A stretch of DNA of 64,000 nucleotides from Chloroflexi bacterium RBG_13_51_36 (GTDB lineage Bacteria > Chloroflexota > Dehalococcoidia > GIF9 > AB-539-J10), in NCBI GenBank assembly GCA_001796515.1, contig MGMS01000014.1:1-64000 (forward strand). The letters are read 5' to 3'. Position numbers and translations under genes: made by a program. The notes below the pieces were generated by a model. The model saw only the letters and a program-made list of their open reading frames with translations. It was not told where the DNA came from and made no database searches. Position 1 is the stretch's first letter; every line of letters begins with the position of its first letter. Below, piece after piece: positions 913-63,113 of this stretch.

Positions 913-2838
913 ATGACAAATAGCAATCTGACCATATTGGATTTTTCGTCTCAATGTGATTGGGAAGAAAAGAACAAACCGCGTCTAGTATCCTTATTTT
1001 CAGGATGCGGTGGATTAGACCTTCCTTTTCATAAAGCAGGTTTCGAGTGTGTCTGGGCAATTGACGCAAATAAAGATGCTTGCCGGACTTACACAAGAAA
1101 CATCGCTGATGTAATCGTCCATGGGAAGATAGAAGAGGTGGATTCAAACAAGATCCCTGATTCAGACATTATCATTGGTGGATTTCCTTGTCAGGATTTC
1201 TCAATGATATGGAAGCGACCGGGGCTTGATGGTACAAGAGGAAATCTTTATACATATTTCTTATCTTTTGTTAAAGCTAAGCAACCGAGGGCTTTCGTTG
1301 CAGAAAATGTCAAGGGGTTATTGAGCGCAAACGAACACAAAGCTATTGCTCGTATCATCTCGGATTTCGAGGAGATAAATCCCGGATATTTGGTCAAGCC
1401 GAAGCTGTATAACTTCGCAGAATACGGCGTACCGCAATTCCGAGAGAGAGTTATTATTGTTGGCGTTCGAATGGATACAGGGTTTAATTTCATTCACCCG
1501 AAACCTGAATACGGACCAGGGCGAAAGTATCCGTTTGTTACGGTAGGAGAAGCATTAAAAGACGTTCAGAAGGTTCTTTATAACAATGAAGCTATGAAGA
1601 TTGCGCCCAAAACCGTTGAAATACTTAAACTTATTCCGCCGGGTGGGAATTTCGCAAACATTTCCAAAGATAATCCACTTTACGTCAGAGGAATGATAAG
1701 CCATGTTTATCGCCGAATCGACCCAGGGAAGCCATCTGCCACTTTGATAGCTGCAGGAGGAGGGGGAACATGGGGGTATCATTATCCCGAACCAAGAGCT
1801 CTAACTAATAGAGAGAGAGCCAGATTACAGACATTCCCTGATGATTTCATCTTTGAAGGCTCGTTTTCCGAGGTTCGCCGTCAAATTGGCAATGCTGTTC
1901 CTCCAAGAGGAATGATACCTGTAGTTGAAGCTCTGCTACCCCTTTTTACGGGTAATTATAGAAAGTCGGACCTTTACGGCTTAGATAGAGAGTTGAGACG
2001 AATACCCATTCACAAGCGTTTGAAGCTTGCTGCGGATGAAAATGGCAATGAACCAACTGAACTCAGTCTTTCGTGCTTTGAGGGAGTGCACGAACAGCAT
2101 TCTGCGGATTCTGATTGTACTTCAAGGCCCCCATGGACATGTGAAGAGCGTAATCTATCGAGCGAAACCCAGAATCTCAAAGTCAATGAATTCAACATTC
2201 GCGTGATAGAATGGCATTCAACAAACAGTCGCCATTTCCCGTGGAGAGATAGATCGGATTTGTACTCCCTCCTTGTGGCCGAACTACTTTTACAGAAGAC
2301 TAACGCTGACAAAGTAGTACCCGCCTATTCTGAGATCATTAAGCGTTACCCGATTCCTGAGAAACTTTCGCGTGCACGAACAAAGACACTTCAGAAAATC
2401 GTCGCTCCGTTAGGTTTGATAAAAAGGACAAAGACATTAAAATCTGTTGCCGAACAGATAACTAATATCAATAACGCAAACATTGACCTGAATCATTTGC
2501 TGAGTATAAAAGGAGTAGGCGAATATATGGCGAGGTCTGTTCTTATTCATTCAAAAGGGGTAAGGCTTGCTCTACTTGATCCGAATTTCTTGAGAGTATA
2601 CGGTAGGATATTTGGTTTGAGTAGTACACATTCTCGGCCTCGTTGCGATAAAAACTTATGGGAGCGAGCGTATGCGTTCTTTCCGATTATAAAAGTGTCT
2701 AATTACGTATATGCTATGCTCGATTTCGCTGCGCTTGTGTGTCGGGTGTCGAAACCAAAATGCTCTTCATGTCCTATGTTCCCAGATGTGTGCCAAGGGG
2801 TAGAAAGTACTCAGGCTAGAACCAAGCCATATGAATAA
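913..2838 (+). CDS. C5-cytosine DNA methyltransferase fused to a HhH-GPD mismatch glycosylase
   Basis: The N-terminal half (about residues 20-350) has the ordered motifs of an m5C methyltransferase: FSGCGGLD (AdoMet, about 29), PCQDFS with catalytic Cys93, ENV at 131-133, QFRERV, and the QIGNAVPP motif X. The C-terminal half (about 424-630) is a HhH-GPD/endonuclease III-type fold with IKGVGEY, LLDPN carrying the expected catalytic Asp556, and four cysteines (610, 617, 620, 627) for a 4Fe-4S cluster. Their spacing is x6-x2-x6, where x6-x2-x5 is usual. The catalytic Lys position of EndoIII is Tyr538, as in the thymine mismatch glycosylase Mig.MthI. The inferred role is to methylate cytosine and repair the T:G mismatches that follow m5C deamination. 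It is the first gene of a three-gene operon. Confidence 0.93.
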   Translation: MTNSNLTILDFSSQCDWEEKNKPRLVSLFSGCGGLDLPFHKAGFECVWAIDANKDACRTYTRNIADVIVHGKIEEVDSNKIPDSDIIIGGFPCQDFSMIWKRPGLDGTRGNLYTYFLSFVKAKQPRAFVAENVKGLLSANEHKAIARIISDFEEINPGYLVKPKLYNFAEYGVPQFRERVIIVGVRMDTGFNFIHPKPEYGPGRKYPFVTVGEALKDVQKVLYNNEAMKIAPKTVEILKLIPPGGNFANISKDNPLYVRGMISHVYRRIDPGKPSATLIAAGGGGTWGYHYPEPRALTNRERARLQTFPDDFIFEGSFSEVRRQIGNAVPPRGMIPVVEALLPLFTGNYRKSDLYGLDRELRRIPIHKRLKLAADENGNEPTELSLSCFEGVHEQHSADSDCTSRPPWTCEERNLSSETQNLKVNEFNIRVIEWHSTNSRHFPWRDRSDLYSLLVAELLLQKTNADKVVPAYSEIIKRYPIPEKLSRARTKTLQKIVAPLGLIKRTKTLKSVAEQITNINNANIDLNHLLSIKGVGEYMARSVLIHSKGVRLALLDPNFLRVYGRIFGLSSTHSRPRCDKNLWERAYAFFPIIKVSNYVYAMLDFAALVCRVSKPKCSSCPMFPDVCQGVESTQARTKPYE

Positions 2839-2895
2839 AGGACTCAGTAGCCAAAATACGACACTATGCTGATAATATCGGATAAGAGAGAGAGC

Positions 2896-3942
2896 ATGGA
2901 AAAACTTCTATGTCCCAATATTAGGCCGATAACACACACCCATCAAGATTTCTTGTCTAGATTTGAGGAGCTGGCGTCACAATCAGATTCTCTTCGAATA
3001 GCCTCTGGGTATATCTCTACTGATTCGATCGTTCACCTAAGACATTACGTACACCAATTGAGATTGTCTAATTGCGAATTGCTGGTGGGAATGCATTATT
3101 TTGATGGAATTACAAAACCAGAATTTGAAGCCCTCGGTGATTTTGATTATTACTTGCGATCCAATGCCTTAGGAGAAATAGACGTATTCACGGCCTTCCC
3201 ATATCATGGGAAATTGTATCTGTTTCAAAAGAATTCGACCAATTTTGCCGCATTGCTTGGTTCCTCAAATCTGTCAGCAATTGAACATCGGAGGCAGTTT
3301 GAAATCGACGCAGAAATTTCTTCTCGCGCTCTATTGGAAGATTTAAATAATCTGTACGATCAATTTAAGGCAAAGGCTACTAAACCCATAGATAGTTGGA
3401 ATCCAGCAAAATTCAAAGAAACCTCCGGTTTTTTAGCGGGCTGTACTGGGGTAACAAGAATGGATGATTCACAAAAGAGCCAACTCTGGTCTACTGCTTC
3501 GGCGCTTAGTTTTGATATACCCGTTAAATCTACCCCCAAGAGTAATTTAAACGCGTTTTTCGGAAGGGGTCGAGAAAATACTAGAACCGGAGTTATCCGA
3601 CCAAGACCTTGGTATGAAGTTGAGTTGATCGTCCCGAAAAGAATAACTGCAATGCGGGGATACCCGGTCAAACGTTCGGATTTGGGTAGAGTAATCACAG
3701 TTTTCACAGATGACGGTTGGAGTTTTCGTAGCAAAATAAGTGGGGATTACTCCAAGAATTTTAGATCCGCAGATGATTTAAAAACTCTGGGACTCTGGAT
3801 AAAAGGCAGGTTAGAAAACAAGGGAGTGCTCAAGGTAGGCGAACCCGTCACGAGGGAAACGTTGAGACAGTACGGCAGGGACACTATTCGATTAACAGCG
3901 ACTAACGTTCCTGATGTCTGGTTGCTCGACTTCGGGGTGTAA
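2896..3942 (+). CDS. PLD-family restriction endonuclease (NgoFVII-like)
   Basis: This is the likely nuclease partner of the upstream methyltransferase. The N-terminal part holds a phospholipase-D-type active site: HGKLYLF (HxK), followed by LGSSNLS and acidic residues, arranged as in NgoFVII/BfiI-type enzymes that cut DNA without a metal ion. The C-terminal third (from the PWYEVELIVP segment) is likely the DNA-recognition domain. An in-frame ATG also exists at 2866, but GAGAGAG just before 2896 favours the internal start. It begins about 60 bp after the methyltransferase and ends 2 bp before the next gene, so the three are probably co-transcribed. Family level is fairly certain; the recognition sequence is unknown. 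Confidence 0.82.
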   Translation: MEKLLCPNIRPITHTHQDFLSRFEELASQSDSLRIASGYISTDSIVHLRHYVHQLRLSNCELLVGMHYFDGITKPEFEALGDFDYYLRSNALGEIDVFTAFPYHGKLYLFQKNSTNFAALLGSSNLSAIEHRRQFEIDAEISSRALLEDLNNLYDQFKAKATKPIDSWNPAKFKETSGFLAGCTGVTRMDDSQKSQLWSTASALSFDIPVKSTPKSNLNAFFGRGRENTRTGVIRPRPWYEVELIVPKRITAMRGYPVKRSDLGRVITVFTDDGWSFRSKISGDYSKNFRSADDLKTLGLWIKGRLENKGVLKVGEPVTRETLRQYGRDTIRLTATNVPDVWLLDFGV

Positions 3943-3944
3943 AA

Positions 3945-5816
3945 ATGAGTCATTTGGATAGTTATATAAACCGTTTCCCATCTGAATCACGAGAAATCAG
4001 TGCTGCAATAACGCAAAGCGTTAACAGCCTTTGGGACAGATACTTATTTGAATTCAACTATAACTCCCATCTGATAGGACTTCTTTTTGGTCAAGTCCAA
4101 AGCGGAAAAACTAGCCATCTATTGGGTGTAATCTCAAAGGCTGCTGATGAAGGTTTTAAACTTTTTATTCTTCTGACAACTGACAATGTTTCACTACAGA
4201 GACAAACTTTGGAAAGAGCACTCTACACTTTGGATAGTTTCAACGTATGTGATGAAACAGACGACATGAGATTTCGAGTAGGCGGAATTAGGAAGCCTGT
4301 ATTGATAGTATTGAAAAAGAACCAAAGCGTCCTCCGAACTTGGACGAGCCACCTAGCGTCCTTGGGTTTCTCAAATAGAGAACCTTTATTCATTGTTGAC
4401 GATGAAGGCGACGCAGCTACACTTAACACTCTAATAAATGTGAATGATCAAAGCCGAATCAATTCGTTAGTCAATGGTATGAGGTCTGCGGCACCTTCCA
4501 GTGTATTTTTATCTGTTACTGCAACTCCGCAGGCCTTGATACTTCAAACTAGAGACTCAATAATGCGCCCTTCGTTCGCGCACCTGATCGAACCTGGGGC
4601 ATCCTATCTTGGTGGTGAGTTTTTTTATGGAGAGGACTCGCGATGTCCGCATGTAATAAATGAGGCTGAGAGAAGAGAACTTCTCTCACCAGACGACGTA
4701 CCTCCAGAGGGGTTAAGGAAGGCAATCTTGTCATTCCTTATGTCCTCTGTGCACCGTCACATTCTTGGGAGTTCTGTGACTAATATGCTTATCCATCCAA
4801 GTCTGCGAATTAGGGACCATAGTAGAGTAGAGGCCAAAGTCAAGGCTTTCTTGAAAAATATTGCTAACGACCTTGAACATAACTCGCAAAATTTCAAACA
4901 CGTTGCGCTTGATGCATGGAACGACCTGAATACTACTCAAACAGGTTTAACTTCCTTTGAGGAGTCCTTTGATCGATTTAAACGTTTAGTTACCACGGTA
5001 AAGGTATTAGTAATAAATTCAAATTCTTTGCATACCTCTGAGTACGAGAACGGTCTCAATATCATAATCGGTGGCAACAGTCTTGGCCGAGGGTTAACTT
5101 TTCCAGGTTTGCATACGGTTTACTATTCGCGAACGGCCAAAACCCCTCAGGCCGATACTTTCTGGCAGCATTCAAGAATGTTTGGCTATGATAGAATTCC
5201 AGGTTTATGCAGAGTGTACTTGCCACCAAGTTTACTGCACCTATTTCGAGAATTGAATGAAGCAAACCAATCAATGGTGAAAATACTTAGAACCGGAGGC
5301 ATAGATCATATTAGTCTGCTGAGTCCACAAGGGACGAGGCCAACTCGTCCAAACGTTGTAAGAACCAAAGGGCAAGTAGTTTTAATAGGTGGCGTTAATT
5401 ATTTCCCGCAATTTCCAATCTCCAGCAATGTTGAGCAATTGGACCGTTTGCTGGACATTGATAACAAGGAGACGCTAATGAGTTTGGAGGAATCAGTCAA
5501 CATACTCCGGCTTACAGCTCAGGAAAACGGCGATTCCTTCGAGAAGCAGACTTGCATCGATGCAGTTGATGCCCTTGGTGGTTCAAAATATGATAAAGGA
5601 TGTCGGCTTATTGTCAGAACAAATCGCAGTATCAGTAAGGGCACTGGCACCCTACTGTCGCCTGACGACAGAGCTCTAAGTAATTCATACGAAAATGAAC
5701 TTGCACTAACAATGTATCGTTTGAACGGTGAAACGGACAAAGGTTGGCGGGGTAAACCTTTATGGGTACCTAACATTAAACTGCCAGCAGGTAGGAACTA
5801 CTGCAGTACCGAGTGA
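3945..5816 (+). CDS. Z1-domain ATPase of a restriction-type system
   Basis: The protein resembles Z1-domain superfamily II-like ATPases that accompany C5 methyltransferases in defence loci. A Walker A box GQVQSGKT sits at residues 49-56, a Walker B VDDEGD near 150, a SVTATPQ motif III-like segment near 190, and a late helicase-type GGNSLGRGLTFPG followed by an HSRMFGYDR arginine motif near 376-416. These suggest DNA translocation or remodelling coupled to the PLD nuclease. It starts 2 bp after that gene. Codon use and AT content match its two upstream neighbours and differ from the GC-richer housekeeping genes after 11.9 kb, consistent with transfer of the operon as a unit. Confidence 0.85.
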   Translation: MSHLDSYINRFPSESREISAAITQSVNSLWDRYLFEFNYNSHLIGLLFGQVQSGKTSHLLGVISKAADEGFKLFILLTTDNVSLQRQTLERALYTLDSFNVCDETDDMRFRVGGIRKPVLIVLKKNQSVLRTWTSHLASLGFSNREPLFIVDDEGDAATLNTLINVNDQSRINSLVNGMRSAAPSSVFLSVTATPQALILQTRDSIMRPSFAHLIEPGASYLGGEFFYGEDSRCPHVINEAERRELLSPDDVPPEGLRKAILSFLMSSVHRHILGSSVTNMLIHPSLRIRDHSRVEAKVKAFLKNIANDLEHNSQNFKHVALDAWNDLNTTQTGLTSFEESFDRFKRLVTTVKVLVINSNSLHTSEYENGLNIIIGGNSLGRGLTFPGLHTVYYSRTAKTPQADTFWQHSRMFGYDRIPGLCRVYLPPSLLHLFRELNEANQSMVKILRTGGIDHISLLSPQGTRPTRPNVVRTKGQVVLIGGVNYFPQFPISSNVEQLDRLLDIDNKETLMSLEESVNILRLTAQENGDSFEKQTCIDAVDALGGSKYDKGCRLIVRTNRSISKGTGTLLSPDDRALSNSYENELALTMYRLNGETDKGWRGKPLWVPNIKLPAGRNYCSTE

Positions 5817-6912: not shown

Positions 6913-7389
6913 TTACATTTTAATTATCTTATCCCAGCCAACGTGTTTGTCAGGCATCAAGCTGTTAAGAGGAGGTAACTCCCCATATATCTTAAAGTAG
7001 TCTTTGAGCAATCTCTCCTCTTTTGTCCTAGCTTCAGTCTTGTTGCTTAGCTTCATAACTATGAACTGGATTCTGGAGTTATTCTGATAAGTAGTTTTGA
7101 AATGTGAGTATTGGCACATCAAAATGAGAAACAACCTGTCACCTACGCTATGTCTCATGAATTTGTCTCCTATATATGCCTTATAAAATTCCCTAATCCT
7201 CCGTGCCAAATTTACAGATTGGCCTATTGCTAGCACTCCTTTCTTATCTATACCCAATAACCGGCCAATAGGATGCGATCGTCCTGCTGAGTCTGATAGC
7301 CTAATCTTGTACACGCCAGGTACCTTGCTGAGTTCCTTAGTAAAGTCATTTATTGACGAAATGTCATGCCATTTACTCCAGTTTGACAT
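6913..7389 (-). CDS. Putative GIY-YIG-type nuclease domain protein
   Basis: This small single-domain protein of 158 residues fits the GIY-YIG pattern. GVYKI (about 25-29) stands for GIY and LAIGQS (about 53-58) for YIG. These are followed by the conserved Arg in NLARRIREF, a Glu in the KEERLLKDY helix, and an Asn in PPLNS near the end. The tyrosine of the YIG motif is replaced by Ala, so activity is uncertain. GAGGTG precedes the ATG. It stands alone between repeats on the opposite strand to the methyltransferase operon. It may be a homing-type or defence-associated nuclease. Confidence 0.5.
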   Translation of the reverse strand: MSNWSKWHDISSINDFTKELSKVPGVYKIRLSDSAGRSHPIGRLLGIDKKGVLAIGQSVNLARRIREFYKAYIGDKFMRHSVGDRLFLILMCQYSHFKTTYQNNSRIQFIVMKLSNKTEARTKEERLLKDYFKIYGELPPLNSLMPDKHVGWDKIIKM

Positions 7390-8091: not shown

Positions 8092-9186
8092 ATGCTGACA
8101 GCACGTGATTACTTCTACAAATTCGTGGCACCCGAACAACTTAATAAGAGTTACCAAGCTGCATTTCAGGAACGTGACTTGTCACAACTACCTAATGGAT
8201 TGCCCAATGGTGTACCATCGTTTTCAACGCAAGAAGATGCTTTTAAAAAGGCAGTTAACCACGCGCCAAATAGGAGCAACGACATCTTGATCGAGCATTA
8301 CATTGAAAACCTAATCAAATTGGCACCTGCCAAGTTGAAGTCACGGCTTGAAGGGATGTTCGTTGCGAAGGTCAAGGACTTGATAGCCAACGCAGCTGCA
8401 CAACATAGTCGCGGCAACTACGATGGAGATCTAATATTCTTTAATGTCGGTTTGTCCGATGCTTGCTATCAGTATGCCATACTGTACTATGAGTTTATTC
8501 GACTAGTTGATGAAGGAAAGAGGCTTGGAGACAGGCATCCAGAAATTGTACAGTTGACCAAAAGCGTAACTGAGCATACTATAAAGATAGCTATTGCCCA
8601 GAGAAGGTGGAATAGAGAAGGTCTTGTGCAGTTCACGTGGGATGATGTCGTCTATTCCAGACCAGACATGGAAGGTTATGCCATAACTATCGCTACCTAT
8701 TCGGACAAGTTCATTCTCTATCACGAAATTGCACACCATATATTAGGCCATACCAAGTTAGGCAACTCTCCTTTCACTTTTCTTGAGAATCTGCCAGACA
8801 TCTGCAAGTATTGGCGTAATACTATGAGCAAGAAACATATGCAAGAATATGAAGCTGATGCTGCCGCATTGCTGATGACACTGCAAACCCGTTCTTCAAA
8901 TCTACAGGAGGAAAGAGATAAGGAACTGAGTATTGCTGTCGGTGGGTTGCTGACATTGACGATAATTGGGCAATTTGCTCGACATGTGGACAAGGCTAGT
9001 ATAGATCATCCTTCGGTTTCGTCAAGATTTGATCAATGTGTAGCTATCCTCAAAGAGAGCTGCACATATGAGACCTCAATTGGTGAAATCATTGATGATA
9101 TCAAGAGATTTCAAATCTTGCTGCGGAAATCTCAAGGATGGGGTCTTGGGTGCCGGTGGGACATGGCCGAGTTCACACATAATTGA
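8092..9186 (+). CDS. Putative zinc metallopeptidase with HExxH motif
   Basis: The protein carries YHEIAHHILGH at about residues 211-221, an HExxH zinc-binding motif, followed some 45 residues later by EYEADAAAL, which supplies a third ligand as in M48-like and related peptidases. It has no signal peptide or membrane segment, so it is likely cytoplasmic. The N-terminal 200 residues are not recognised. Comparable cytosolic HExxH proteins include the phage-exclusion peptidase Lit, but similarity here is limited to the motif. GGAGA precedes the ATG. The gene lies among nucleases in a repeat-rich block, suggesting an accessory or defence role by inference only. The reading frame may continue after a frameshift, as described for 9187-9346. 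Confidence 0.6.
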   Translation: MLTARDYFYKFVAPEQLNKSYQAAFQERDLSQLPNGLPNGVPSFSTQEDAFKKAVNHAPNRSNDILIEHYIENLIKLAPAKLKSRLEGMFVAKVKDLIANAAAQHSRGNYDGDLIFFNVGLSDACYQYAILYYEFIRLVDEGKRLGDRHPEIVQLTKSVTEHTIKIAIAQRRWNREGLVQFTWDDVVYSRPDMEGYAITIATYSDKFILYHEIAHHILGHTKLGNSPFTFLENLPDICKYWRNTMSKKHMQEYEADAAALLMTLQTRSSNLQEERDKELSIAVGGLLTLTIIGQFARHVDKASIDHPSVSSRFDQCVAILKESCTYETSIGEIIDDIKRFQILLRKSQGWGLGCRWDMAEFTHN

Positions 9187-9365: not shown

Positions 9366-9956
9366 CTATCCTAACTTCAGTACATGTGAGATCAAAGAAT
9401 ACCAGTCACCGAAACAGCAGTCATCACAAACTGAGTAAAATGAACGACTCTTTCCTCTGTGGTTTGCATCCAGTAGAGCAGTGAGAAACTCACTTGGGTT
9501 GATTTGGCACGTGACACTGCCAGTAGTCATAAAGCTAATCGTCCAGTCGACTTGATTGTGGGGCAAAATCCTAATTGCACCAATCCCATTTGACCGGGCG
9601 TAAGAAAGTGCTCCCTTTTGCAGGGCGTTGGGGCTGGCAATGACGCCCTTTACATTCTTCCCAGCAATCTGGTCAAGTTTAGCTTTGAATTTTTCAACAT
9701 CATCGACCGGGATTGTGCCGCCATAATCTTTACATTCGCAGACCCATAGAAACGAGTAATTCTTTGAGTTTGGAGGCCAGACTTCAATAGCAATATCGAC
9801 GATGATTTCCGATTTGCGATCTTTGGAGAAGTACCCCTTCTTCTTGAATAGTCTCGCTTGCGACGGAGAAAGCCCGAGTCGATCATTTTCAAGCTCTTTC
9901 CCTATTATGTCGAAGACGAGATCCTCGAAGGCATTGCCTTTCGCCGATGTATCCAT
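9366..9956 (-). CDS. Mrr-like restriction endonuclease-fold protein
   Basis: This 196-residue protein has the pattern of a PD-(D/E)xK nuclease of the Mrr/restriction endonuclease-like superfamily. An N-terminal GNAFEDLVFDII helix is followed by an acidic residue in VDIAIEVW, then the CECKDYGG strand (ExK, about residues 73-75) and a helix with VDDVEKFKAKLDQI. A later GVIASPNALQKGALSYARSNGIGAI segment is typical of Mrr catalytic domains, where the protein scans for its fold partner. No DNA-recognition winged helix is present, so it may be a catalytic module alone. It faces the metallopeptidase gene tail to tail. Confidence 0.7.
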   Translation of the reverse strand: MDTSAKGNAFEDLVFDIIGKELENDRLGLSPSQARLFKKKGYFSKDRKSEIIVDIAIEVWPPNSKNYSFLWVCECKDYGGTIPVDDVEKFKAKLDQIAGKNVKGVIASPNALQKGALSYARSNGIGAIRILPHNQVDWTISFMTTGSVTCQINPSEFLTALLDANHRGKSRSFYSVCDDCCFGDWYSLISHVLKLG

Positions 9957-60303: not shown

Positions 60304-61620
60304 ATGAGTACATATCCTCTAGATTTAATACCAATTCTCAAAAGCAAATGGAAACAACGGGAAAATCGTCGCTATGGGAAAGTGTCTTCTCTACCTTCTA
60401 CATCCGAACTCAAGATTCTGCTTGATGTTGCATTTCACGCAACTCTATTGACAGAGGAAGGCAGACGACCTGGATTTCGCCTTTTACATTACCCCCCCAA
60501 AGATTACGAAGAGGACCAGAAAGAACCTTTTCACACTACTAGATTGCTTCCGTTAGATATCCCTAGACCCTACACTGTTGCGGAGCTTAATCGCCTTGCC
60601 CCCGCAGCCGAACTAACCCGAATGCTGATTTGCGTTGATAACACTTCTAATGACCCGCGAAACCCCGATTTACGTATATGGGCTGTACTTGACGTAGGCG
60701 CAAATTGGTGGAAATTCGTTCGTAGCGAAACTGGTTCAGGATATCCACCACCAGCTCATCTTACCATCAGTAGTTCATGTCCTGGTGAGCTATCTTTCTC
60801 GGGTCAAGGCGAAGTTGTACTGACATTACGAAACGGCCAGATCTTATACCCTGTCAGCGACGTATTAGGAACCGGACCAATCGCTAAGTTTTTCAAACCG
60901 GCGAAAACTCGCCTCTACAGAGACACTCTGGTTTCCCTAGGCCGAACTAAATTTGATGATCAGGGCCATGATGAAGATTATCCCCTTAGATCCTACGATT
61001 TCTTTCTAGAGCGTATGCTTTTCTACATTCGTGAGAGACAGCACGGTGGCATGGTAATAGTTATTCCAGAATCGGTCCGCAAAACCGATACCAGAATAAC
61101 AGACCGCTTAAGCATTAAATACTCTTGTTCCTATGACTATATTTGGGACCTACTGGTTCGTAGTTTAGCTAATCACCGGAAGTTTTACGACGCGTTTGAT
61201 CCACTCTGGCAAGGGAAAAGGACTCTGACCGCAAAGAAATTCCAAGAGTACTTCCGCCTTTCAACTGAAAAGGAAGAATTAGATGAAGCTTTGGGAGACG
61301 CTGCTCAAACTGTCGCCGCTTTAACCTCCGTGGATGGCGCTGTTGTCATGACTGACCGATTCCACATCCTTGGGTTCGGCACAGAAGTTACTGCTATATC
61401 ACATCTTCAAGAGATTGTAGTATCCGCAGAACCAACGCATTTCCGCACTCCTATGGAATCTTATGGCACCAGACACAGAGCGGCCTTCCGCTTCTGTTCG
61501 AGCCTTGAAGACTCTGTGGCCTTTGTCGTGTCAAGAGATGGAGGAGTAAAAGGCGTTAAACGAGTCGGAAGTGACGTCATTCTTTGGCCAGATATCAATG
61601 CCGGAGCTATGGGATTGTAA
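60304..61620 (+). CDS. DAC (diadenylate cyclase-like) domain protein, DACNV-type
   Basis: The C-terminal about 120 residues resemble the DisA_N/diadenylate cyclase fold, with both catalytic motifs: DGA at 344-346 (SVDGAVVMTDRFHILGFGTE) and RHR at 390-392 (ESYGTRHRAAFRF). These motifs bind and condense two ATP to c-di-AMP in DisA and CdaA. The N-terminal about 310 residues match the style of DACNV sensor proteins but hold no other motif known to me. The gene is AT-richer than neighbours and lies 29 bp before a SEFIR-domain gene, so the pair is probably one operon in which the first protein makes or senses a nucleotide signal. Activity is inferred. Confidence 0.75.
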   Translation: MSTYPLDLIPILKSKWKQRENRRYGKVSSLPSTSELKILLDVAFHATLLTEEGRRPGFRLLHYPPKDYEEDQKEPFHTTRLLPLDIPRPYTVAELNRLAPAAELTRMLICVDNTSNDPRNPDLRIWAVLDVGANWWKFVRSETGSGYPPPAHLTISSSCPGELSFSGQGEVVLTLRNGQILYPVSDVLGTGPIAKFFKPAKTRLYRDTLVSLGRTKFDDQGHDEDYPLRSYDFFLERMLFYIRERQHGGMVIVIPESVRKTDTRITDRLSIKYSCSYDYIWDLLVRSLANHRKFYDAFDPLWQGKRTLTAKKFQEYFRLSTEKEELDEALGDAAQTVAALTSVDGAVVMTDRFHILGFGTEVTAISHLQEIVVSAEPTHFRTPMESYGTRHRAAFRFCSSLEDSVAFVVSRDGGVKGVKRVGSDVILWPDINAGAMGL

Positions 61621-61649
61621 AGTGAACCAGTTATGGAGTGACCTAGCAA

Positions 61650-63113
61650 ATGACAGGTAACAATCCGAAGCTGTTTATTTCATATAGTTGGACTAAACAG
61701 GACCATGAAAAATGGGTAATCAACCTAGCTAATGAATTAGTAGAAAATGGTGTCGATGTCATGCTCGACAAATGGCACTTAAAAGAAGGACAAGATGCCC
61801 ACGCCTTCATGGAAAAAATGGTAGCCGACCCTGACATTAAAAAAGTTGTAATTATTTGTGACCAAGTTTATGCGCAAAAAGCGGACCGTCGAAGCGGAGG
61901 CGTAGGTACTGAGACTCAGATTATTACACCGGAAATTTACTCAAAATCTGAGCAAAGTAAGTTCGTCGCTGTAATTTCCGAAAAAGATGAAAATGGTAAT
62001 CCTTACCTGCCAACATACTATAAACCGCGGATATACATCGACCTAAGCAATGATGACCTTTACCTCTCCAATTTCGAGCAACTGCTCCGATGGATTTATG
62101 ATAAACCCCTCCATATCAAACCTCCTCTTGGAAAACCCCCAACATTTCTTTTCGACGAGAATCCCATCTCACTTGAGACTACTACTCTTCATAGAAGAGC
62201 TCTGGACCTCATTCGCTCAAACAAGGAGCATGCCGGAGGAGCACTAGTTGAATACCTATCAACCTTTGCACAGAATCTGGAGAAATTCAGAATTTCTTAT
62301 GACGAAAAAGAGGTAAATACTTTTGACGATAAGGTTATTGACAATATAAATAAATTCCTACCTTACAGAAATGAACTGATTACCTTGTTTTTTGCCGTGG
62401 CACAATACAGAAACACTCCTGAATCAACTCAACAAATTCATCGATTTTTCGAAAGCTTGATTCCTTATATGTCCACACCTGAGAACATTACCCACTTCCG
62501 CGATTGGGACTACGACAATTTCAGATTTATCATACATGAACTATTTCTTTATTCCATTGCAAGCTTTCTAAAATACGAACGATTTGATTCTGCATCCTAT
62601 CTCTTAGGTACCAACTATTATTTTGAGAGGAACCTTGACTATGGCCGAGATGCGATGGTTCCTTTTACCGTATTTTCGGACTATATAAGCTGTTTCAAAC
62701 ACAGGAATGCTAGATTAAACTTAAAGAGGATTTCTATTCACGCCGATTTACTCATAGAACGGTCTAAACTTTCCACTATCGGTATTACAGACCAACAATT
62801 GATGCAAACTGACTTTGTATTATTCATAAGAGACGCCCTTGGTTCGATGAAAACAAGTTCACATCAAAGCTGGAATCCTGTTAGTCTGTTGTATGCGGAA
62901 CGTTCAAGAGGACCTTTTGAGATATTCGCAAGAGCACAATCTAGAAAATACTTTGACAGACTAAAATGCTTATTCGATATTAACCAGAAGGATGATTTTG
63001 TTCCAATGCTTGATGCTTTTCGAGAGGGTAAACTGGTAAAGCCCCGATGGGAATTCTCGAGTTTTGAGCCAGCACTTCTAATAGGGTTTGAAAAAATGGC
63101 GTCTTCACCGTGA
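61650..63113 (+). CDS. SEFIR/TIR-type domain protein, putative effector
   Basis: Residues about 5-165 form a SEFIR/TIR fold: KLFISYSWTKQDHEKWVINL, NGVDVMLDKWHLKEGQDAHAFME, VVIICDQVYAQKA, then GGVGTETQIITPEIY with a Glu in the place of the TIR NADase catalytic residue. The C-terminal 320 residues are mostly helical with no recognised family (e.g. RDWDYDNFRFIIHELFLYSIASF). It follows the DAC-domain gene by 29 bp on the same strand. In comparable pairs TIR/SEFIR proteins act as NAD-degrading effectors triggered by a nucleotide messenger; here this is inference. No membrane segment is seen. Confidence 0.72.
   Translation: MTGNNPKLFISYSWTKQDHEKWVINLANELVENGVDVMLDKWHLKEGQDAHAFMEKMVADPDIKKVVIICDQVYAQKADRRSGGVGTETQIITPEIYSKSEQSKFVAVISEKDENGNPYLPTYYKPRIYIDLSNDDLYLSNFEQLLRWIYDKPLHIKPPLGKPPTFLFDENPISLETTTLHRRALDLIRSNKEHAGGALVEYLSTFAQNLEKFRISYDEKEVNTFDDKVIDNINKFLPYRNELITLFFAVAQYRNTPESTQQIHRFFESLIPYMSTPENITHFRDWDYDNFRFIIHELFLYSIASFLKYERFDSASYLLGTNYYFERNLDYGRDAMVPFTVFSDYISCFKHRNARLNLKRISIHADLLIERSKLSTIGITDQQLMQTDFVLFIRDALGSMKTSSHQSWNPVSLLYAERSRGPFEIFARAQSRKYFDRLKCLFDINQKDDFVPMLDAFREGKLVKPRWEFSSFEPALLIGFEKMASSP

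Follow-up and report, generated by a model that had tools for sequence, protein, structure and literature searches.

The open reading frame at positions 913 to 2838 of the window, by which we mean the whole 64,000-nucleotide stretch of contig MGMS01000014.1 from Chloroflexi bacterium RBG_13_51_36 that was analysed, probably encodes a protein that serves an NgoAVII/CglI-type restriction-modification system as its modification subunit and carries a Mig-type mismatch glycosylase at the C-terminus, that is, a GCSGC methylase that would mend its own T:G mismatches and would have arisen when a stop codon was lost. This reading is drawn from sequence comparison, and the features on which it is built are the following:

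913..2838, plus strand: fused C5 methyltransferase and Mig-like mismatch glycosylase, 641 aa, a single open frame with two Pfam domains
985..1914, plus strand: C5 DNA methyltransferase domain, residues 25-334 (Pfam PF00145 DNA_methylase, E 2.3e-75)
1510..1812, plus strand: target-recognition region, approximately residues 200-300, with the predicted site GCSGC, from identity to NgoAVII-type methylases
1915..2073, plus strand: methyltransferase C-terminal tail, residues 335-387, which is homologous to the ends of stand-alone relatives
2074..2184, plus strand: linker, approximately residues 388-424 (about 37 residues), with no in-frame ATG and one in-frame GTG at 2086
2185..2793, plus strand: HhH-GPD glycosylase domain, residues 425-627 (1kea, Mig.MthI, E 1.5e-28), with Glu457, Lys462, Ala465, Tyr538, Asp556, Asn558 and Tyr600
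2740..2793, plus strand: [4Fe-4S] cysteine motif C610-x6-C617-x2-C620-x6-C627, from residue reading
2866..3942, plus strand: R protein of NgoAVII/CglI type, a PLD nuclease with a B3-like DNA-binding domain (PF09565, PF20731; 4rct, R.NgoAVII, E 3.5e-75)
3945..5816, plus strand: N/H protein of the same cassette, a Z1-domain helicase-like ATPase (PF10593, E 3.1e-35; PADLOC Helicase_II, 601 bits, full length)

Reading of the frame and its residues bore out the coordinates and residue numbers of an initial annotation of this DNA: the frame runs from the ATG at 913 to the stop at 2838 over 641 codons with zero internal stops. The proposal made there, that the glycosylase is the C-terminal half of the C5 methyltransferase itself, likewise held, with one frame, both Pfam domains and complete motifs. 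In the methyltransferase half all catalytic motifs are present (Cys93 in PCQ, Glu131 in ENV, Arg177, and GNAVPP at 326-331); PCQ, ENV, QxRxR and GNAVPP follow one another in the order of a C5 cytosine DNA methyltransferase and are accompanied by a target-recognition region, and a structure-sequence search returned the HaeIII and HhaI methylases as the top solved relatives of the N-terminal half. When the tail was aligned, ...PTELSL of the window faced ...AIQLSLL-stop of the Okeania protein; stand-alone relatives stop there and the window reads on. Pfam HhH-GPD matched residues 455-584 of the glycosylase half (E 2.2e-9), exceeding the curated cut-off. Asp556 and the four cluster cysteines (610, 617, 620 and 627) are present as had been described, and Glu457, which had gone unmentioned, occupies the catalytic Glu position. 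The last cysteine gap is indeed x6 and not x5 (Cys620-x6-Cys627), a spacing unmatched among those other relatives in which all four cysteines of the pattern are present, nearly all of which have x5, and because of this gap cluster binding by the glycosylase half is not certain. Among methylase-adjacent Mig-like proteins we also observed a recurrent Cys3His pattern of approximately C-x6-H-x2-C-x5-C, with His for the second cluster cysteine (L037, L138, L140, L144, L145, L148 and others). The protein ends 14 residues past the last cysteine, without a MutY C-terminal domain. An AlphaFold prediction of the fusion had a mean pLDDT of 38 (its alignment consisted of eight cyanobacterial methylases) and was left unused.

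The two genes downstream, at 2866-3942 and 3945-5816, on which the initial annotation was silent, belong to the same cassette. A C5 methylase, a PLD+B3 endonuclease and a Z1 ATPase lie adjacent to each other, in the gene order seen in Neisseria, Mucilaginibacter and Psychrobacter, and judged by its genes the locus is a complete NgoAVII/CglI-type restriction-modification system. Over residues 24-345 the window methylase is 64-76% identical to NgoAVII-type methylases (65% to the gonococcal and 72-76% to cyanobacterial ones), and its recognition region is 59% identical to that of the N. gonorrhoeae NgoAVII-type methylase and 62-74% to those of others of this kind. M.CglI and M.NgoAVII are C5 enzymes that methylate GCSGC (PMC4267653), and since the window recognition region shares 59% identity with this type, GCSGC is the predicted site of the window methylase. 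By homology of the R and N proteins, ATP-dependent cleavage downstream of GCCGC is predicted for the cassette as well. The methylase, linker (0.39), glycosylase, R and Z1 parts have a GC3 of 0.37-0.41, as against 0.56-0.66 in eight resident genes; because they share a GC3 unlike that of the resident genes, the cassette, fusion included, looks to have been acquired as one unit. In 0.43 Mb of the window's own genome GCSGC occurred at an observed/expected ratio of 1.04, compared with 0.96 in a congener, and was thus neither depleted nor enriched, and the same held for its deamination products in these 0.43 Mb. A flat footprint is uninformative for a recent arrival, so it neither supports nor excludes methylation. 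Two other short sites, GATC (0.45 in the own genome and 0.40 in congener G019) and GGCC (0.68 and 0.59, respectively), were strongly under-represented.

Further genes of the window deserve a brief description. An Mrr-like endonuclease (9366-9956, minus strand) and a weak GIY-YIG protein (6913-7389, minus strand) lie near the restriction cassette, so that the end of the contig may hold a small defence island. The protein encoded at 8092-9186 carries the zinc-protease motif HEIAHH and weakly matches the phage exclusion protein Lit. At 60304-63113, a DACNV-domain protein is followed by a SEFIR/TIR-domain protein matching the bSEFIR defence model along its length, and the two look like a nucleotide-sensor and SEFIR defence pair.

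A search for the fused architecture across genomes, which the initial annotation had asked for, covered about 880 different genomes from the phylum of the window together with plasmids, a locus being defined as a methylase with a Mig-like glycosylase at a distance of <=3 kb. With the window included, 32 such loci with a C5 methylase were found in genomes and plasmids, and the phylum's share comes to about 25-30 loci with a separate Mig-like gene near the C5 methylase. Separate Mig/methylase pairs do recur, but a second fusion was not found: no true methylase/Mig fusion beyond the window was detected among the about 880 phylum genomes, and none is described in the open-licence papers searched. 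Long frames in G195, G456, G285, G275, G204, G633 and G491 proved to be neighbouring genes with stop codons, or MutY/Mig-like proteins whose N-termini are different, and were rejected as methylase fusions. The Mig-like gene mostly lies directly downstream of the methylase, with ends that overlap or nearly touch. Separate Mig-like genes stand beside C5 methylases on pFV1 and on Caldicellulosiruptor pCALKR01, the two genes overlap on Thermus plasmids, and a Mig-like gene accompanies a C5 methylase on a haloarchaeal (Haloplanus) plasmid. Scanning viral contigs with six glycosylase queries yielded zero relatives, and phage records gave weak matches only, the annotated ones being MutY. Nineteen methylase loci carry a Vsr relative in place of Mig, a few of them being the short and the extended stretch of one place, and the number of loci with both is zero; as the loci were collected by a two-domain query their proportions are biased, the zero overlap of Mig and Vsr not obviously so, though some loci are short. 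One of the Vsr loci (L141, G764) combines a C5 methylase and an NgoFVII-type PLD/B3 endonuclease with a Vsr gene directly behind them, and is hence the same kind of system with Vsr, not Mig. We also noted Mig-like glycosylases a few kb from distant Z1-helicase genes in L040, L045, L152 and L153, where no C5 methylase was detected close by.

In five pairs a lone stop codon separates the methylase from a Mig-like gene that continues in its frame; one of these, from the window's genus (G012), has the junction ATG TAG ATG. In L090 the junction between methylase and glycosylase reads TGA...GTG. Since same-frame, one-stop pairs exist, the simplest origin of the fusion would be a methylase-then-Mig two-gene layout from which the methylase stop codon was lost. 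The five relatives with this layout also lend some weight to an assembly or sequencing artefact, in which the Mig-like gene would be separate and in the same frame and its upstream stop lost by consensus error. The fusion is known in one copy, from a 57-contig draft assembly, one base could part the genes, and the TGC at 2074-2076, three codons ahead of the in-frame GTG, recalls the TGA...GTG of L090. However, an error would be required at one particular codon, and the codon composition of the linker is that of the rest of the cassette. We regard an artefact as rather unlikely because the linker lacks an ATG, leaving GTG as the sole candidate for a separate start, and a convincing start codon is difficult to make out.

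Taking the fusion as genuine, the top solved relative of its glycosylase half is Mig.MthI, matched over nearly its full length, followed by MutY (E 1.6e-26). The domain resembles Mig.MthI in being an HhH-GPD protein with Glu457, Asp556, Tyr538, four cluster cysteines and no MutY C-terminal domain, although the x6-x2-x6 spacing of the cysteines is unusual. Tyr538 had been brought forward earlier as a mark of a T:G enzyme. It does occupy the EndoIII-Lys position as in Mig.MthI, but as an argument for T:G specificity it is weak: Tyr is found there in 21 of 25 MutY-clade sequences and also in B. stearothermophilus MutY (PMC2714593), and we discarded it as non-diagnostic, given that Mig and most MutY relatives share it. 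Endonuclease III (Nth) was rejected as a candidate because the position of its catalytic Lys is Tyr538.

We compared the 25 MutY-clade sequences with 31 glycosylases encoded <=3 kb from a C5 methylase. At the position of E. coli MutY Q42, all 25 MutY-clade sequences have Q and 29 of the 31 methylase-adjacent glycosylases have R or K, and the window has Lys462. At the V45 position A occurs in 27/31 methylase-adjacent glycosylases, the MutY clade has V (16/25) more often than A (6/25), and the window has Ala465, while Q at the Q182 position (22/25 in the MutY clade, 0/31 beside methylases) is replaced by Tyr600, as in 7/31. Set against R47, A50 and L187 of Mig.MthI, Ala465 is identical and the other two differ; Lys462 and Tyr600 differ from MutY and are common in methylase-adjacent glycosylases. 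MutY V45 and Q182 correspond to Mig A50 and L187, and exchange of this pair shifted the preference of Mig.MthI from T/G to A/G, according to earlier work that PMC2714593 cites. T/G activity did not arise from the opposite exchange (PMC2714593), and the residues at V45 and Q182 are therefore indicative, not sufficient. In a free tree the window domain fell outside the MutY clade on a long branch, and the AU test gave a p of 0.60 for placement with MutY, so that this grouping is not rejected. As the tree leaves the domain unplaced, the assignment rests on residues and gene context.

The AU result would also suit an adenine glycosylase of MutY type or an enzyme that guards generally against oxidised bases, as would the weak A/G activity of wild-type Mig.MthI (PMC2714593) and the best NCBIfam glycosylase match, which is the MutY model at 136 bits, far under its 286-bit cut-off. 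In addition, no MutY-like gene was detected in the window's own genome besides the fused domain, the other HhH-GPD match being Nth-like only. Yet none of the three MutY-typical residues is retained, with K, A and Y in place of Q42, V45 and Q182, the C-terminal 8-oxoG-recognition domain is missing, and the place after a C5 methylase is one taken by Mig or Vsr genes, which makes a MutY-type enzyme unlikely. BLAST with E. coli Vsr found no Vsr-like sequence in the window's locus. A Mig-type (T:G) glycosylase fused to a C5 methyltransferase, as the initial annotation had it, is the reading best supported at the level of sequence, because of Lys462, Ala465 and Tyr600, because the protein lacks the C-terminal domain of MutY and matches Mig.MthI better than MutY, and because separate Mig-like genes repeatedly accompany C5 methylases.

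In the mechanism that we propose, the methyltransferase half would make 5-methylcytosine in GCSGC and thereby shield host DNA from the R/N endonuclease. Deamination of this methylcytosine would give thymine and a T:G mismatch, the glycosylase half would excise the thymine (or the uracil of a U:G), and AP endonuclease and polymerase would complete base-excision repair and restore C:G. The single frame, the domains with their catalytic and Mig-like residues, the restriction cassette and the repeated gene pairing are seen in the sequences; GCSGC methylation, T:G activity and any preference of repair for the methylated site are what we infer. Joining the two halves may provide a mere 1:1 supply or may steer repair to the methylated site; that the methylase recognition region also steers the glycosylase, which would make T:G repair specific to GCSGC, unlike that of any known Mig enzyme, is a tentative and rather doubtful idea. 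A role of the glycosylase half in restriction or in active 5-methylcytosine removal, as by PabI or plant ROS1/DME, and not in repair, is very improbable: glycosylase-based restriction is known from PabI, an adenine-excising restriction enzyme (PMC4081073), and the gene sits within a restriction cassette, but a complete endonuclease pair is already there, Tyr replaces the catalytic Lys of bifunctional HhH glycosylases such as a ROS1/DME mechanism would need, and linking an attacking activity to the methylase that protects the host would put that host at risk.

A natural fusion provides direct genetic evidence for a methylase and a glycosylase acting together. The C5 methylation of restriction systems causes mutations, and most of what is known about how hosts bear the cost of repair comes from Dcm/Vsr and a single archaeal Mig enzyme. 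Judging from our census, Mig-like genes would be a frequent substitute for Vsr in this phylum, and the two would be mutually exclusive. As this cassette is of a studied type whose site is known, site-specific T:G repair is directly testable.

The components and their pairing are known already; the single-chain form on an NgoAVII-type system is not met in the collections or open-licence papers searched. NgoAVII/CglI systems share with the window the C5 methylase, the PLD/B3 endonuclease and the Z1 ATPase in the same order, but their methylases end at the start of the window's linker. In the gonococcal, Mucilaginibacter, Psychrobacter and cyanobacterial NgoAVII-type loci examined there is no glycosylase gene, save for an Nth-like gene 1.9 kb off in L010. 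Plasmid pCALKR01 of Caldicellulosiruptor acetigenus brings together a B3-domain endonuclease (annotated PLD), a C5 methylase and a Mig-like glycosylase that, at 38-39% identity, is among the closest found to that of the window; unlike in the window, these are three separate genes, the methylase is 37% identical and on the opposite strand, and the stretch read contains no Z1 gene. Mig.MthI of Methanothermobacter pFV1 is an HhH-GPD T:G glycosylase that also goes with a C5 restriction-modification system, carries Tyr in place of the Lys and Ala at A50, and lacks a C-terminal domain, but it is about 31% identical, is encoded by a separate gene, serves a system of the NgoPII family (GGCC-type), and has Leu187 where the window has Tyr and a cluster gap of x5 where the window has x6. 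Dcm/Vsr of E. coli, finally, also couples a C5 methylase to a dedicated T:G repair enzyme, from overlapping genes, whereas Vsr, in contrast to the window glycosylase, nicks DNA as an endonuclease, has a different fold and is a protein of its own.
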